NCBI RefSeq assembly: GCF_002020135.1
Contig: NZ_MPZS01000003.1
Coordinates: 372,001-436,000, forward strand
Direction: 5' to 3'
Length of the DNA stretch: 64,000 nucleotides
DNA from: Thioclava marina
GTDB taxonomy: Bacteria > Pseudomonadota > Alphaproteobacteria > Rhodobacterales > Rhodobacteraceae
The notes under the pieces are model-generated. The model worked only from the letters and a program-made list of their open reading frames with translations. It ran no database searches and had not been told where the DNA came from. Made by a program: the position numbers and the translations under genes. Positions 21,735-26,794 of the stretch are shown here, one piece after another. Every line of letters starts with the position of its first letter. Within the stretch, counting starts at the first letter, position 1.

Positions 21735-21995
21735 AGGGTGGCGAACCGGGTGCACTGGGTGCCCGGTCATCCGCCGGGAGCAGGCATCACGACAGCCCGC
21801 GCTGTCGCGAAGCGGCGATGCGATACGTTGCGATGGCGCGGCTGAGATCGGCGGTTTCGCCCGCGAGGGAGTCACTTCCGCGATCATCCCGCCGGGATGC
21901 GCGCCTGTTTTTTGGGCAGCTGGAGTCTCGGGGCGCAAAAGAGCGAGGCCTCGCTTTGAGAAGCGCGGCGGAGTGGTTTTTGATGAAAGGGCAGG
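21735..21995. other. Intergenic region before the guanidine riboswitch
   Basis: No convincing gene is present. A weak stem CATCCC/GGGATG (21885-21899) followed 8 nt later by a six-T run (21908-21913) could end the upstream transcript. A perfect 14-bp palindrome AGCGAGGCCTCGCT lies at 21942-21955. The promoter of the guanidine operon must lie here or just downstream, but I could not identify clear -35/-10 elements. Confidence 0.4.
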
Positions 21996-21996
21996 G

Positions 21997-22099
21997 CGCT
22001 TAGGGTTCCGTTGCCGATACGGCAGGTCTGGTCCGAGAAGTGCCACCCTTGCGGCAAAATCCGCGACGGGCACACGGCGGGCCAAAATCCCGGGAGATT
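21997..22099 (+). promoter_or_regulatory. Guanidine-I riboswitch (ykkC class) aptamer
   Basis: The conserved blocks of the ykkC motif appear in the right order: TAGGGTTCCG (22001-22010), CTGGTCCGAGAA (22028-22039) and, after a variable stem, ACACGGCGGG (22072-22081), then AAAA and CCCGGGAGA (22089-22097). The variable stem pairs GTGCC (22040-22044) with GGCAC (22069-22073) and has an inner GCGG/CCGC hairpin; GGG (22079-22081) pairs with CCC (22089-22091). The class binds free guanidinium and switches genes on. The genes downstream encode guanidine uptake and hydrolysis, which agrees with the call. Confidence 0.93.
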
Positions 22100-22147: not shown

Positions 22148-22194
22148 GGCCTCTACGCCAAAATACGGCGGGACGCATGCCAACGGGGAAGACC

Positions 22195-23262
22195 ATGACC
22201 AGAACGAAATTCCTGTCCGCCACGGCCCTCGGCTTGGGCATTCTCGCCGCCTCCTTCTCGCCCGCGATGGCCGAGAAGAAAACCGATTTCAAACTCGCCT
22301 GGTCGATCTATGCTGGCTGGATGCCCTGGGGCTATCTGGACAGCTCGGGCATCATGGACAAATGGGCCGAGAAATACGGCATCACCGTCGATATCGTGCA
22401 GATCAACGACTACGTGGAATCGATCAACCAATATACGGCGGGCGCCTTCGATGGCGTCTCGGCGACCAATATGGACACGCTTTCGATTCCCTCGGGCGGT
22501 GGCGTGGATACGACCGCGCTGATCGTGGGCGATTATTCCGACGGCAATGACGCGATCATCTCGAAGAGCGCGAAAACGGTCGAGGAGCTGAAGGGCACGA
22601 AGGTGAACCTCGTTGAGCTGTCGGTCTCGCATTACCTGCTGGCGCGCGCACTCGACAAGGCGGGGCTGGCCGAGAAGGATCTGGCCGGTGTGGTGAACAC
22701 CTCCGACGCCGACATGATCGCGGCCTTCGCGACCCCCGAGGTCGAGACGGTGGTGACCTGGAACCCGCTCGTGTCTGAAATTCTCGGCTCGAACCCCGAT
22801 GCGATCAAGCTTTTCGACAGCTCGCAGATCCCGGGCGAGATCCTCGACCTGATGGTGGTCAATACCGAGACGCTCAAGGACAATCCCGACTTCGGCAAGG
22901 CCGTGGCCGGTGCCTGGTATGAGGTGATGGCCAAGATGGCCGCGGGCGACGAAGAGGCGCTGAGCGCGATGGCCGAGGCCGCCGGGACCGATCTGGAGGG
23001 CTACAAATCCCAGCTGGCCGCCACGGCGATGTTCTACGACCCGGCCAAGGCGGTCGCGCAGGCGACGAGCGCCGAAATGCCCGAGACGATGACGATGGTC
23101 GCGAATTTCCTCTTCGACAAGGGGATCCTCGGCGTCGATGCGCCCTCGGCCGATTTCGTGGGCGTCGAATATCCCGATGGCAAGGTCACCGGCGATCCGG
23201 CCAATGTGAAGTTCCGCTTCGACACCACCTACATGCAGATGGCTGCCGACGGCAAACTCTGA
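22195..23262 (+). CDS. Guanidine ABC transporter, periplasmic substrate-binding protein
   Basis: This 355-residue NitT/TauT-type binding protein (type 2 periplasmic fold) has a clear signal peptide (hydrophobic core SATALGLGILAASFS, cleavage after AMA). Binding proteins of this subgroup occur beside urea carboxylase or guanidine-degrading genes. It is the first gene after the guanidine-I riboswitch, so guanidine is the probable ligand (inference). ATG 22195 was chosen because GGGGAAG lies just upstream and the signal peptide then has normal length; an in-frame ATG lies at 22177. A stem-loop follows the stop codon. Confidence 0.88.
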   Translation: MTRTKFLSATALGLGILAASFSPAMAEKKTDFKLAWSIYAGWMPWGYLDSSGIMDKWAEKYGITVDIVQINDYVESINQYTAGAFDGVSATNMDTLSIPSGGGVDTTALIVGDYSDGNDAIISKSAKTVEELKGTKVNLVELSVSHYLLARALDKAGLAEKDLAGVVNTSDADMIAAFATPEVETVVTWNPLVSEILGSNPDAIKLFDSSQIPGEILDLMVVNTETLKDNPDFGKAVAGAWYEVMAKMAAGDEEALSAMAEAAGTDLEGYKSQLAATAMFYDPAKAVAQATSAEMPETMTMVANFLFDKGILGVDAPSADFVGVEYPDGKVTGDPANVKFRFDTTYMQMAADGKL

Positions 23263-23271
23263 GCTGACTTG

Positions 23272-23295
23272 CCCGGCCTTCGGGCCGGGTCTTTT
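23272..23295 (+). terminator. Stem-loop with T-run after the binding-protein gene
   Basis: CCCGGCC (23272-23278) pairs with GGCCGGG (23283-23289) around a stable TTCG tetraloop and is followed by TCTTTTT. It lies between the binding-protein and permease genes of one operon, so it probably causes partial termination or protects the 3' end of the first cistron, giving more binding protein than membrane components. Confidence 0.75.
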
Positions 23296-23317
23296 TGCCG
23301 ACAGCACGGGACCGCCT

Positions 23318-24130
23318 ATGCGCCTTCTCAACCGACGTCCGACCCGACCCGCAGGCGTCCTGCTTGCCGCGCTGCCTTTCGTGGCGGTGCTGATCGCCTA
23401 TTGGATCGGCTCGGAAATCCGGCTGGCGGCGAACCCGCAGGACAAACTCCTTCCCGCGCCCGCGACGATCCTGAACACCGCTGGCGGGCTCTTCACCGAG
23501 CCCAACAAGCGCACGGGCGAGATCCTGCTCTGGGCCGATACATGGGCGAGCCTGCGGCGGCTGGCGCTTGGCGTCGGGATCGGGGCGCTGATCTCGCTGA
23601 CGGTGGGCGTGGGGATCGGGCTGCTGCCTTACGTGCGGCGGGGGGTGTCGAGCTTCGTCGCGGTGCTCTCGATGGTGCCGCCGCTGGCGCTTTTGCCGAT
23701 CCTGTTCATCGTTTTCGGACTGGGCGAGACCTCGAAAGTCGTGCTGATCGTGATCGGCATCACGCCCTTCCTGACCCGCGACCTCTCGCAGCGGGTGCTC
23801 GACATTCCGCACGAAGAGATCGTGAAGGCACAGACGCTCGGGGCCTCGACTTGGGTCATCGCGCTGCGCGTTGTGCTGCCGCAAATCCTGCCGCGCCTGA
23901 TCGCGGGGATAAGGTTGTCGCTCGGCTCCGCCTGGCTGTTCCTGATCGCCGCCGAGGCCGTCGCGGCCGAGGTGGGTCTGGGCTACCGCATCTTCCTCGT
24001 GCGCCGCTATCTCGCGATGGACATCATCCTCACCTACGTCATCTGGATTACGCTGCTCGCCTTCCTGATCGACTTCGCGCTCAAGACGCTCTCGCGCAAA
24101 GCCTTCCCCTGGCTGGGAGGTGGGCTATGA
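23318..24130 (+). CDS. Guanidine ABC transporter, permease
   Basis: This permease of 270 residues has about six transmembrane helices and belongs to the SsuC/TauC family. The cytoplasmic coupling-helix segment EEIVKAQTLGASTWVIALRVVLPQILPRLIAG carries the EAA-loop pattern that contacts the ATPase. It lies between the binding protein and ATP-binding genes of the riboswitch operon, overlapping the latter by 4 bp. Import of guanidine is inferred from context. Confidence 0.88.
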   Translation: MRLLNRRPTRPAGVLLAALPFVAVLIAYWIGSEIRLAANPQDKLLPAPATILNTAGGLFTEPNKRTGEILLWADTWASLRRLALGVGIGALISLTVGVGIGLLPYVRRGVSSFVAVLSMVPPLALLPILFIVFGLGETSKVVLIVIGITPFLTRDLSQRVLDIPHEEIVKAQTLGASTWVIALRVVLPQILPRLIAGIRLSLGSAWLFLIAAEAVAAEVGLGYRIFLVRRYLAMDIILTYVIWITLLAFLIDFALKTLSRKAFPWLGGGL

Positions 24131-24912
24131 GCTTCGTCACCGTTCGCGACGTGTTTCAGGAATATGACGGCCGCCCGATCATCGAGCGGGTCAATCTCGA
24201 CGTGGCCGAGGGCGAGTTCGTCTCGATCGTCGGCGCCTCGGGCTGCGGCAAATCCACCTTCCTGCGGTTGCTCTTGGCCGACGAGACCCCCACGCGCGGT
24301 CGCATCACCGTCGATGGCGGCAAGCCCGCACGAGAGCCGGGGCGCGAGCGCGGCGTGGTGTTCCAGAAATACTCGGTCTTTCCCCATATGACGGTGCGCG
24401 ACAACATCGTCGCTGCCGAGAGCTTCCCGAAAGGCTGGGGCTGGTTTCACGGTGCGAAGCTGCGCGAGGCGCGGGCACGAGCCGATGAGGTACTCGAACG
24501 GATCGGGCTCGCCCATGTCGCGGGCAATTACCCCGCGACGCTCTCGGGCGGGATGCAGCAACGCCTCGCCATCGGGCAGGCGCTGCACGCGCGCCCGCGC
24601 ATCCTGTTGCTCGACGAGCCTTTCGGCGCGCTCGATCCCGGTACACGGCTGTCGATGCATGAATTCCTCACCCAATTGCGCGCCGAGACCAAGATGACCG
24701 TCTTCATGGTTACGCATGATCTGGGCGAGGGGTTCAAGCTGGGCGACCGCGTTCTGGTTTTCGACAAGACCCGCTGGGACCCGGACTATCCCGAACGCTA
24801 CGGTGCGACGATCACCTATGATTTCGACGCCCGCGATCACGGCATCCCCTACCAGCACATCCTCGACAAGATCCCGTCTCTGGCCGCCGCCGCGACCCCG
24901 CCGCCCGCCTGA
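24127..24912 (+). CDS. Guanidine ABC transporter, ATP-binding protein
   Basis: The 261-residue ATPase has Walker A GASGCGKST, Q-loop VFQKYSVFPH, signature LSGGMQQR, Walker B ILLLDEPFGALD and H-loop THD. The subfamily is that of nitrate/taurine importers (SsuB/TauB). A C-terminal extension after the H-loop (RYGATITYDFDARDHGIPYQHIL) is seen in the urea-carboxylase-associated group. ATG 24127 overlaps the permease stop. Confidence 0.9.
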   Translation: MSFVTVRDVFQEYDGRPIIERVNLDVAEGEFVSIVGASGCGKSTFLRLLLADETPTRGRITVDGGKPAREPGRERGVVFQKYSVFPHMTVRDNIVAAESFPKGWGWFHGAKLREARARADEVLERIGLAHVAGNYPATLSGGMQQRLAIGQALHARPRILLLDEPFGALDPGTRLSMHEFLTQLRAETKMTVFMVTHDLGEGFKLGDRVLVFDKTRWDPDYPERYGATITYDFDARDHGIPYQHILDKIPSLAAAATPPPA

Positions 24913-25015: not shown

Positions 25016-26290
25016 ATGTTCCATGATCTGCCAGGCGGGCGCTCGCGCCCGCATCACCCGCAAGCGGCTATTTCGGCGCGCGTCCAGCGCGCGCGCCGCC
25101 AGCATCACCCGGACCTGACGAAGCTCGCGGGCTGGAAGGCGATGCGCAAGGAAGCCGACCTGCCCGAGGGCCGCTGGGCCGAGGAACGGGCCTGGGCGCT
25201 GCGCATGGGGCTGACCGGCGCGGACAGCATCGACGACAAGTCGATCCCGACCTTCGCGCGCGGCGAGCTGCCCCATTACGCGGGCATCAACACCTTCCTG
25301 AAGGCGCCCTATACCGAGGACGTGCTGGAGGTCGCCCATTACGACGCGACCGTGCTGGGCATCCCCTTCGACGGCGGCACCACCTACCGCGCGGGAACCC
25401 GTTTCGGGCCGCAGGGCGTGCGCAAGATCTCGGCGCTCTACACGCCTTACAATTACGAGATCGGCGTCGACCTGCGCGAGCAGATGACGCTGTGCGACGC
25501 GGGCGACGTATTCACCATCCCTGCGAATATCGAGAAGAGCTTCGACCAGATCAGCCGCGCCGTTTCCCACGTCTTCTCGTCGGGCTCGCTCCCGATCATG
25601 ATCGGCGGCGACCACTCGATCGGCTTCCCTTGCGTGCGCGGCATCGCCGAATGCACCTCGAAGAAGATCGGCATCGTCCATTTCGACCGCCATGCCGACA
25701 TTCAGGAAAAAGACCTCGACGAGCGGATGCACACGACCCCGTGGTTCCACTCGACCAATCTGCCCAATGTGCCCGCGAAGAACCTCGTGCAGATCGGCAT
25801 CGGCGGCTGGCAGGTCCCGCGCGAGGCGGTGAAGGTCGCGCGCGAACGCGAGACCAACATCATCACCATGGGCGACATGGAGAAGATGGGCATCGACAAG
25901 ACGATCGAGATGGCGCTGGAGATGGCGTGGGACGGGGTCGACATGGTCTATATGTCCTTCGATATCGATTCCATCGACTGCGGCTTCGTGCCAGGCACCG
26001 GCTGGCCCGAACCGGGCGGTTTCCTGCCCCGCGAGGCGCTGGCGCTGGCCTCGGGCATCGCCGCCGAAGGCATCTGCGGGATGGAGCTGGTCGAGGTCGC
26101 ACCGCCCTATGACACCTCCGATATCACCGCGCTGATGGGCACCCGCGTGATCGTGGATGTGCTGGGGGCGCTCGTGTCGAACGGCAAGCTCGGGGCGCAC
26201 AAGAAGCATATCGACAAGCCGGTCTCGATCCCGCATGGCGAGTTCGAAGGCAAGCGCTGGTCGAACCCCGATCCGCATAAGGTGGGTTGA
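25016..26290 (+). CDS. gdmH: Guanidine hydrolase, Ni-dependent ureohydrolase family
   Basis: The 424-residue ureohydrolase splits guanidine into urea and ammonia. The binuclear metal site is intact: GGDHS (His200), FDRHADIQE (Asp224, His226, Asp228) and SFDIDSID (Asp316, Asp318). Features beyond agmatinase match cyanobacterial GdmH (Sll1077): the long N-terminal arm, the block DERMHTTPWFHSTN, QIGIGGWQVPRE, and FVPGTGWPEPGG after the last metal ligands. Known GdmH needs nickel and HypA/HypB-like helpers; here a His-rich protein follows instead. Start ATG 25016 follows GGAGA. Downstream of a guanidine riboswitch and importer, this function is strongly supported. Confidence 0.92.
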   Translation: MFHDLPGGRSRPHHPQAAISARVQRARRQHHPDLTKLAGWKAMRKEADLPEGRWAEERAWALRMGLTGADSIDDKSIPTFARGELPHYAGINTFLKAPYTEDVLEVAHYDATVLGIPFDGGTTYRAGTRFGPQGVRKISALYTPYNYEIGVDLREQMTLCDAGDVFTIPANIEKSFDQISRAVSHVFSSGSLPIMIGGDHSIGFPCVRGIAECTSKKIGIVHFDRHADIQEKDLDERMHTTPWFHSTNLPNVPAKNLVQIGIGGWQVPREAVKVARERETNIITMGDMEKMGIDKTIEMALEMAWDGVDMVYMSFDIDSIDCGFVPGTGWPEPGGFLPREALALASGIAAEGICGMELVEVAPPYDTSDITALMGTRVIVDVLGALVSNGKLGAHKKHIDKPVSIPHGEFEGKRWSNPDPHKVG

Positions 26291-26293
26291 GCC

Positions 26294-26794
26294 ATGCCGC
26301 ATGATCACGGCCCCCACGGGCACCATCATCACCACCACCACGATCACGGGCACGCCCATTCGCACGGGCACAGCCATGATCACGCCCATCACGGGCATGG
26401 CCACAATCACGCCCATGGCGAACACTTGCACAGCCACATGCATCACGAGGACGAGGCGGCCGACCTGCAGGTTCTCGCCACCCAGTTCATCGACGGTTTC
26501 GTGCAGGCTTCCGACAAGACGAGCTATCTCAAGCTCGCCGGAGTGCCCTTCGAGCGCGCCTCGGCCAGCGGTCCGAAATCGCTCAAGCTGGTGGATGTGG
26601 AGCTGAAGACCGAATGGCAGGTGGGCACCGCCTCGCCCTCCTTCGGTTCGCGCGAGCTCTCCTACCTTCCGTTCCCGGGCGAGATGGTCCGCGAACGCAC
26701 CAACATGTCGCTGATCTACGTGTCGATGGATGAGAAATCCGTCCTCGACATCCGCGACTTCCTGACCCAACGCAAGAAAGAGATCGACCAATGA
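26294..26794 (+). CDS. His-rich protein of the guanidine operon, candidate nickel chaperone
   Basis: This 166-residue protein is of unknown family. About 28 of its first 52 residues are histidine, including a run of seven, mixed with Gly, Asp, Ala and Ser, a typical metal-storage tail. The remaining 110 residues look globular (LATQFIDGFVQASDKTSYLKLAGVPF, SLKLVDVELKTEWQVG, ELSYLPFPGEMVRERTNMSLIYVSM) and have no CxxC zinc knuckle (HypA) and no P-loop (HypB). It starts 4 bp after gdmH and overlaps the next small gene by 4 bp. I infer that it stores or inserts nickel for GdmH. I do not recognise the C-terminal domain. Confidence 0.8.
   Translation: MPHDHGPHGHHHHHHHDHGHAHSHGHSHDHAHHGHGHNHAHGEHLHSHMHHEDEAADLQVLATQFIDGFVQASDKTSYLKLAGVPFERASASGPKSLKLVDVELKTEWQVGTASPSFGSRELSYLPFPGEMVRERTNMSLIYVSMDEKSVLDIRDFLTQRKKEIDQ

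Follow-up and report, generated by a model that had tools for sequence, protein, structure and literature searches.

A histidine-rich protein encoded beside gdmH, a candidate nickel maturation factor for guanidine hydrolase in alphaproteobacteria

In cyanobacteria, HypA- and HypB-like genes share a guanidine-riboswitch operon with gdmH, which encodes a Ni-dependent guanidine hydrolase, and with genes for a TauABC-like importer (PMC10119275, PMC12186494); these hypAB neighbours are taken here from the papers. Published work reports a requirement for helpers of the HypA/HypB type both for GdmH and for the metformin hydrolase MefH (PMC12186494, PMC11399263), the activation of MefH depending on HypA/HypB (PMC11399263), and the nickel site of HypA is described as Met-His-Glu (PMC7055735). 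A metAB knockout failed to grow on metformin, yet extracts lacking MetAB still showed activity of the enzyme, and nickel added to extracts strongly raised metformin hydrolase activity with no need of the helpers (PMC11271267). Purified N. inopinata guanidinase that had been produced without helpers contained 0.42 Ni per subunit, and the same comammox study reports finding no nickel chaperone and describes the loading mechanism as unclear (PMC11410670). By analogy, these published cases suggest that nickel helpers matter at low nickel (PMC11271267, PMC11399263, PMC11410670).

The window analysed here, a stretch of 64,000 nucleotides from Thioclava marina, carries a guanidine-I riboswitch followed by genes for an ABC importer, GdmH, a histidine-rich protein and a small third product (Table 1). 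The riboswitch (RF00442) is upstream of the operon in all 13 related loci scanned. The importer (22177-24912) is probably specific for guanidinium, a substrate assigned from the operon; guanidinium is a likelier cargo than urea because the binding protein sits behind the guanidine-I riboswitch and before gdmH. The family TIGR03427 is titled 'putative urea ABC transporter', a name that may mislead here.

Table 1. Features of the gdmH operon, in window coordinates
Feature	Position	Strand	Evidence or remark
Guanidine-I riboswitch (RF00442), operon head	21989..22098	+	78.4 bits against a gathering score of 63
ABC substrate-binding protein, TIGR03427	22177..23262	+	516.1 bits against a cut-off of 333.9
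ABC permease (BPD_transp_1)	23318..24130	+	PF00528 1.4e-20
ABC ATPase	24127..24912	+	PF00005 1.8e-34
gdmH, Ni-dependent guanidine hydrolase, arginase family	25016..26290	+	PF00491 1.2e-75; PDB 7esr 2.2e-162, 9fek 3.4e-161
HHPD motif, GdmH residues 30-33, N-terminal extension	25103..25114	+	possible relay or docking site
His-rich GdmH-associated protein	26294..26794	+	166 aa; without known family
N-terminus M-P-H-D	26294..26305	+	MPHD in 80/80 listed relatives (of 128); invariant in alignment
His-rich N-terminal tail, residues 1-52, 28 His	26294..26449	+	varies among relatives
C-terminal domain, residues 53-166	26450..26791	+	AlphaFold mean pLDDT 84, pTM 0.72; no PDB match at Foldseek E<=0.001
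Best-conserved segment, residues 112-131	26627..26686	+	low-confidence loop in model; candidate GdmH docking loop
Third gene, 54 aa	26791..26955	+	ATGA overlap with His-protein gene

The gene upstream of the histidine-rich protein is, from its sequence, gdmH: membership of the arginase family, the metal ligands and the guanidine-specific Thr and Trp are all present. Among PDB entries the product is closest to the Synechocystis enzyme (7esr/7oi1) and the N. inopinata guanidinase (9fek). The key residues of these enzymes (Thr, Trp, His and Asp), with roles as given in PMC11410670, align to T122, H200, D224, H226, D228, H239, D316, D318 and W330; numbering in the paper and in the PDB chain appears to be shifted by about one residue. 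The HHPD motif is found in 107 of 116 recognised GdmH segments (duplicates included). Seven of the other nine read HHP[SN], one is truncated where the locus ends and one, from Nonomuraea and without the histidine-rich protein, lacks the motif, which is also absent from Rubrobacter radiotolerans GdmH. H-H-P-[DNS] is present at every histidine-rich protein locus whose GdmH N-terminus was read. As a marker of that protein the motif was dropped to a lead, because the GdmH of Rubrobacter indicoceani, which lacks the protein, begins MGAGHHHPE.

The histidine-rich protein has no Cys, and all 28 of its His residues lie within positions 1 to 52, in agreement with the initial annotation of the window, which had estimated about 28. 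That annotation also placed the gene 4 bp after gdmH; the gap from stop codon to start is 3 bp. The codons of the tract are mixed (19 CAC, 9 CAT), and in the rest of the window, at distances above 300 bp, the richest 52-residue stop-free stretch in any frame holds 12 His. Relatives were sought by scanning one genome per species with the C-terminal domain; 128 were found, and the counts given here rest on the 80 listed. The domain is 76-97% identical across these, and its mean dN/dS is about 0.12, calculated for the 52 of 60 pairs with a computable dS (60 of the first 65 loci having a full-length, stop-free domain of equal length, with dS unusable in eight pairs). Because of this identity and dN/dS we regard the reading frame, on sequence grounds, as a real gene.

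Is the protein tied to GdmH? In all 80 listed relatives (of 128) gdmH is directly upstream. The two genes overlap in 49 of 79 measured loci, overlap or lie at most 25 bp apart in 69, and are separated by 433 bp at the widest; the spacing count leaves out L035, where the motif search missed the gdmH that tblastn had found. A sample of 385 genomes of the class Alphaproteobacteria includes 11 with gdmH (E<=1e-100) and 13 with the domain, the protein adjoining gdmH in 11 of 11 (Fisher p = 1.3e-19), and a sample of 398 genomes of the phylum Pseudomonadota includes seven and eight, respectively, with the protein adjoining gdmH in seven of seven (p = 2.7e-14); these p values ignore relatedness. Two genomes are common to both samples, so together they comprise 16 different gdmH genomes, and the protein stands beside gdmH in all 16. 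The suggestion that homologues follow gdmH, which had been put forward for checking, is thus borne out at the 80 listed loci and in the 16 genomes.

Homologues apart from gdmH had been named in advance as a finding that would speak against the idea. They do occur, in three of the 19 genomes with a match, but all three copies are truncated or broken. One from the class sample (L097) covers only query positions 26-111 and has an in-frame stop; a second (L103), in a class-sample genome where no gdmH was found, places the domain straight after a truncated substrate-binding-protein gene and is possibly a deletion remnant or an assembly fault; the third, from the phylum sample (L138), is a 34-codon fragment. 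We judge all three to be remnants, and in the genomes sampled the intact protein, as recognised by its sequence, is present only alongside GdmH. In L103 (892-1890) a His-rich stretch lies at the C-terminal rather than the N-terminal end.

Among plasmid records the histidine-rich protein occurs in seven, always with gdmH, and gdmH occurs in 11; the four cases of gdmH without the protein are all actinobacterial. In three of these four (L120, L121 and L122; Embleya left out) neither the protein nor HypA/HypB was found within about 6 kb. In the R. indicoceani record (L120) urease genes lie close after gdmH. A helper is not required everywhere, given that these three actinobacterial gdmH genes lack either kind nearby and that the comammox study found no nickel chaperone in N. 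inopinata (PMC11410670). Of 33 GdmH sequences placed in a tree, the 30 that accompany the histidine-rich protein form one group (100/99), apart from three actinobacterial enzymes, two of them on long branches. The distance matrices of GdmH and the domain correlate weakly (r 0.39 for 77 of 80 loci, 0.35 corrected for the ATPase), and modelling GdmH and the protein as one read-through fusion gave a poor result (pLDDT 59.8, pTM 0.52) that leaves docking unsupported.

The initial annotation had held that neither HypA nor HypB is present. At the locus this stands: tblastn with two HypA sequences and one HypB sequence found neither within 5 kb on each side of the 80 listed loci (of 128), the positive controls being found. 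It stands also for HypA in the host: PF01155 has zero matches across the 3.65 Mb genome (rated 100% complete), and the same search gave matches in seven of 14 control genomes, including E. coli. No host protein exceeds the cut-off for HypB (TIGR00073); the best score, 67.7 bits against 121.2, belongs to UreG, and the five cobW-family matches in the genome are CobW, a ZigA-like protein, UreG, MeaB and one short match. Genome-wide the statement fails elsewhere. Among the 16 gdmH genomes a HypA match is absent from 11 and present in five (one partial), and HypB is over the cut-off in four, these matches being on contigs other than that of gdmH. Since five genomes keep a HypA match and four a HypB match, any replacement of HypA/HypB applies to the locus and not always to the genome.

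The third gene encodes a signal peptide, the sequence ALA-H-DGMHMHPHG, one hydrophobic segment and RR. A similar small gene follows that of the histidine-rich protein in 63 of the 80 listed loci (of 128), with the same ATGA overlap in 59 of the 63. Members of this family mostly have 50-60 residues, with a signal peptide ending in ALA, an H..(H)HPHG stretch, a single hydrophobic segment and a basic C-terminus; if the signal peptide is cut off after ALA, His becomes the first residue. A weak match to DUF6732 was seen in 10 of 32 third-gene sequences (best 0.00087). Sinorhizobium fredii NGR234 encodes a relative, 30-37% identical in the domain, in the same operon, with the same riboswitch upstream and a HupE/UreJ nickel permease gene next downstream, and a HupE/UreJ gene is likewise next after that of the histidine-rich protein in a second genome, G532. 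The layout of the third-gene product recalls the start of HupE/UreJ, which replaces the small gene in these two genomes. The window genome has two HupE/UreJ genes, both outside this operon.

The reported helper requirement of GdmH and MefH leaves a gap for the histidine-rich protein to fill. With a probability of roughly 60%, we consider it a dedicated maturation factor of GdmH, most likely delivering Ni(II), in place of HypA/HypB at the locus. Nickel binding, docking and transfer are what we infer from linkage, composition and analogy. The flexible, usually His-rich tail would collect Ni(II), and the conserved N-terminus, either Pro-His-Asp after loss of Met or Met-His, would set a His at mature position 2 to hold the ion for transfer. 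The C-terminal domain would dock on GdmH through the conserved loop, perhaps near the HHPD extension, and Ni(II) would reach the active site with no GTPase involved. Nickel import may be helped by the third gene or, in the two lineages seen, by HupE/UreJ.

The C-terminal domain was unfamiliar to the initial annotation and remains so after profile and structure-prediction searches, which matched no known unrelated enzyme. The protein has no Pfam or NCBIfam match at E<=1, the domain matches no PDB sequence, and 49 domain sequences compared with profiles gave no HypA, GTPase or UreE family match; the absence of a zinc knuckle and of a GTPase motif, also proposed at the outset, agrees with this and with the lack of Cys. 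AlphaFold predicts a confident alpha/beta domain with the layout alpha-alpha-beta-beta-loop-beta-beta-alpha. In the loop, residues 112-131, 19 of 20 positions have at least 90% identity in 79 aligned sequences, and mean conservation in 45 diverse sequences is 0.83 as opposed to 0.73 and 0.60 for the rest. The two pLDDT blocks of the loop are 53 and 54, and in the model it is a plausible docking site for GdmH.

It has to be asked whether the protein is instead a subunit for the assembly, stability or regulation of GdmH, with metal transfer not its main job and the tail a lineage add-on. The domain and loop are the conserved part and the tail can nearly vanish, being down to one His in a diverged member (L101) that keeps the C-terminal domain. 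Neither does the domain offer an invariant metal ligand: in a diverse alignment its invariant positions hold L, G, P and Y, and among those that are nearly invariant there is one acidic residue (D22) but neither His nor Cys. However, the target enzyme GdmH requires nickel, the number of His in the tail runs from 7 to 28 across the 80 listed relatives (of 128) and the protein of the window, and an N-terminal His, in M-P-H-D or M-H, is kept in nearly all members examined; the subunit explanation is, we think, unlikely. The Met-His form belongs to a rhizobial branch and some others, and an M-H-x reading is possible in nine of 19 further diverged members, whose start codons were picked by eye (in L087, L094, L100 and L102 M-H competes with a second possible start or uses GTG). 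A plain exception is L095, which begins MADIG, with neither MPHD nor MH. Read from MPHD, 79 of the 80 listed relatives (of 128) are without Cys.

The kept N-terminus also bears on how a maturation factor might work. The initiator Met is removed before Pro; if this holds here, the M-P-H-D protein has His at mature position 2, and a HypA-like way of working is possible. We put forward, tentatively, an independently evolved form of nickel loading: a single GTPase-free and zinc-free protein of distinct fold would use an N-terminal X-His-Asp Ni(II) site convergent with the Met-His-Glu of HypA, the tail serving as feeder only, the loop as the means of insertion, and a very small periplasmic His-tipped membrane protein (or HupE) as the import part.

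Storage had been offered as a role alongside insertion. As the core job of the tail it is unlikely, because the tail ranges from 28 His to one while the domain is conserved. A related explanation makes the protein an Hpn-like buffer or store for nickel or metals in general, shielding the cell during expression of the operon, with GdmH loading itself. The density of 28 His per 52 residues would suit such a buffer, as would the strong effect of nickel on metformin hydrolase in extracts where helpers were unneeded (PMC11271267). Nevertheless, a buffer would not be expected to occur solely in gdmH operons, with nothing but broken copies in genomes that lack gdmH, nor to keep domain and loop under strong selection while the tail shrinks, and we regard this explanation as distinctly unlikely.

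The host also encodes UreE and UreG, another possible nickel source. Its UreE (L086 1168-1731, minus strand) ends in a His-rich tail much like that of the GdmH-associated protein. HypB/UreG-type GTPases are the usual partners of nickel helpers, and UreE and UreG might themselves load the nickel, leaving the histidine-rich protein as a mere adaptor to GdmH; ureE and ureG are, however, outside the operon, on contig C2 as opposed to C3, and this arrangement seems highly improbable. Histidine tails bind several metals. That the tail serves Zn, Co, Cu, Mn or another role, the nickel link being accidental, is scarcely credible given HupE/UreJ after the histidine-rich protein gene in two lineages and a nickel enzyme as partner, even though crystals of the N. 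inopinata guanidinase produced in E. coli contained one Ni and one Mn in each subunit (PMC11410670).

Taking the evidence together, a role in GdmH maturation is favoured by the strict linkage, the missing HypA/HypB at the locus, the broken state of copies without gdmH, HupE/UreJ next door, the similar tail of UreE and the best-kept loop. Against it are the nearly tailless L101, the MADIG start of L095, GdmH without the protein or nearby HypA/HypB in three actinobacterial records, the failure to find a nickel chaperone in N. inopinata (PMC11410670), the activity of metformin hydrolase in extracts lacking MetAB (PMC11271267), the poor fusion model, the weak correlation, HypA in five of 16 genomes and UreE/UreG in the host. 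If the protein is indeed a maturation factor, GdmH and one small protein would make a two-gene system for studying GTPase-free nickel insertion, and the protein would be a practical co-expression partner for obtaining fully metallated guanidinases.

How does the protein compare with described nickel helpers? Like GhaA/GhaB, the helpers of Synechocystis GdmH, and those of metformin hydrolase, it is encoded beside a Ni-dependent ureohydrolase and is presumed to load nickel. Unlike GhaA/GhaB it is one protein rather than two and has no HypA or HypB profile match, no GTPase match and, there being no Cys, no zinc knuckle. The two zinc-binding CXXC motifs of HypA are missing, M-P-H-D replaces its Met-His-Glu nickel site of amine and His2 in all 80 listed relatives (of 128), and the P-loop GTPase domain of HypB/UreG was found neither in the protein nor in the 49 domain sequences. 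With UreE, the host's own included, it shares small size and a folded domain with a His-rich tail, but the tail is N-terminal in the GdmH-associated protein, which matches neither PF02814 nor the NCBIfam UreE models, and UreE is absent among the Foldseek and VIA matches listed for the domain model. By its sequence, which lacks the hallmarks of HypA/HypB and of UreE, the protein belongs to neither group, though it would work much like them. We could not find the family described in the open-access literature. Hpn and Hpn-like nickel-storage proteins of Helicobacter are very His-rich and without a further conserved domain. The GdmH-associated protein is equally distinguished by His and is presumed cytoplasmic, but differs in a confidently modelled, conserved domain of 114 residues and a strict link to one enzyme gene. 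CooJ of Rhodospirillum rubrum is a His-rich nickel protein dedicated to one enzyme and encoded in the operon of that enzyme; likened by description only, it has a different target and the same dedication. Many alphaproteobacteria carry, beside the same guanidine enzyme as in the comammox study (PMC11410670), a different and dedicated candidate helper.
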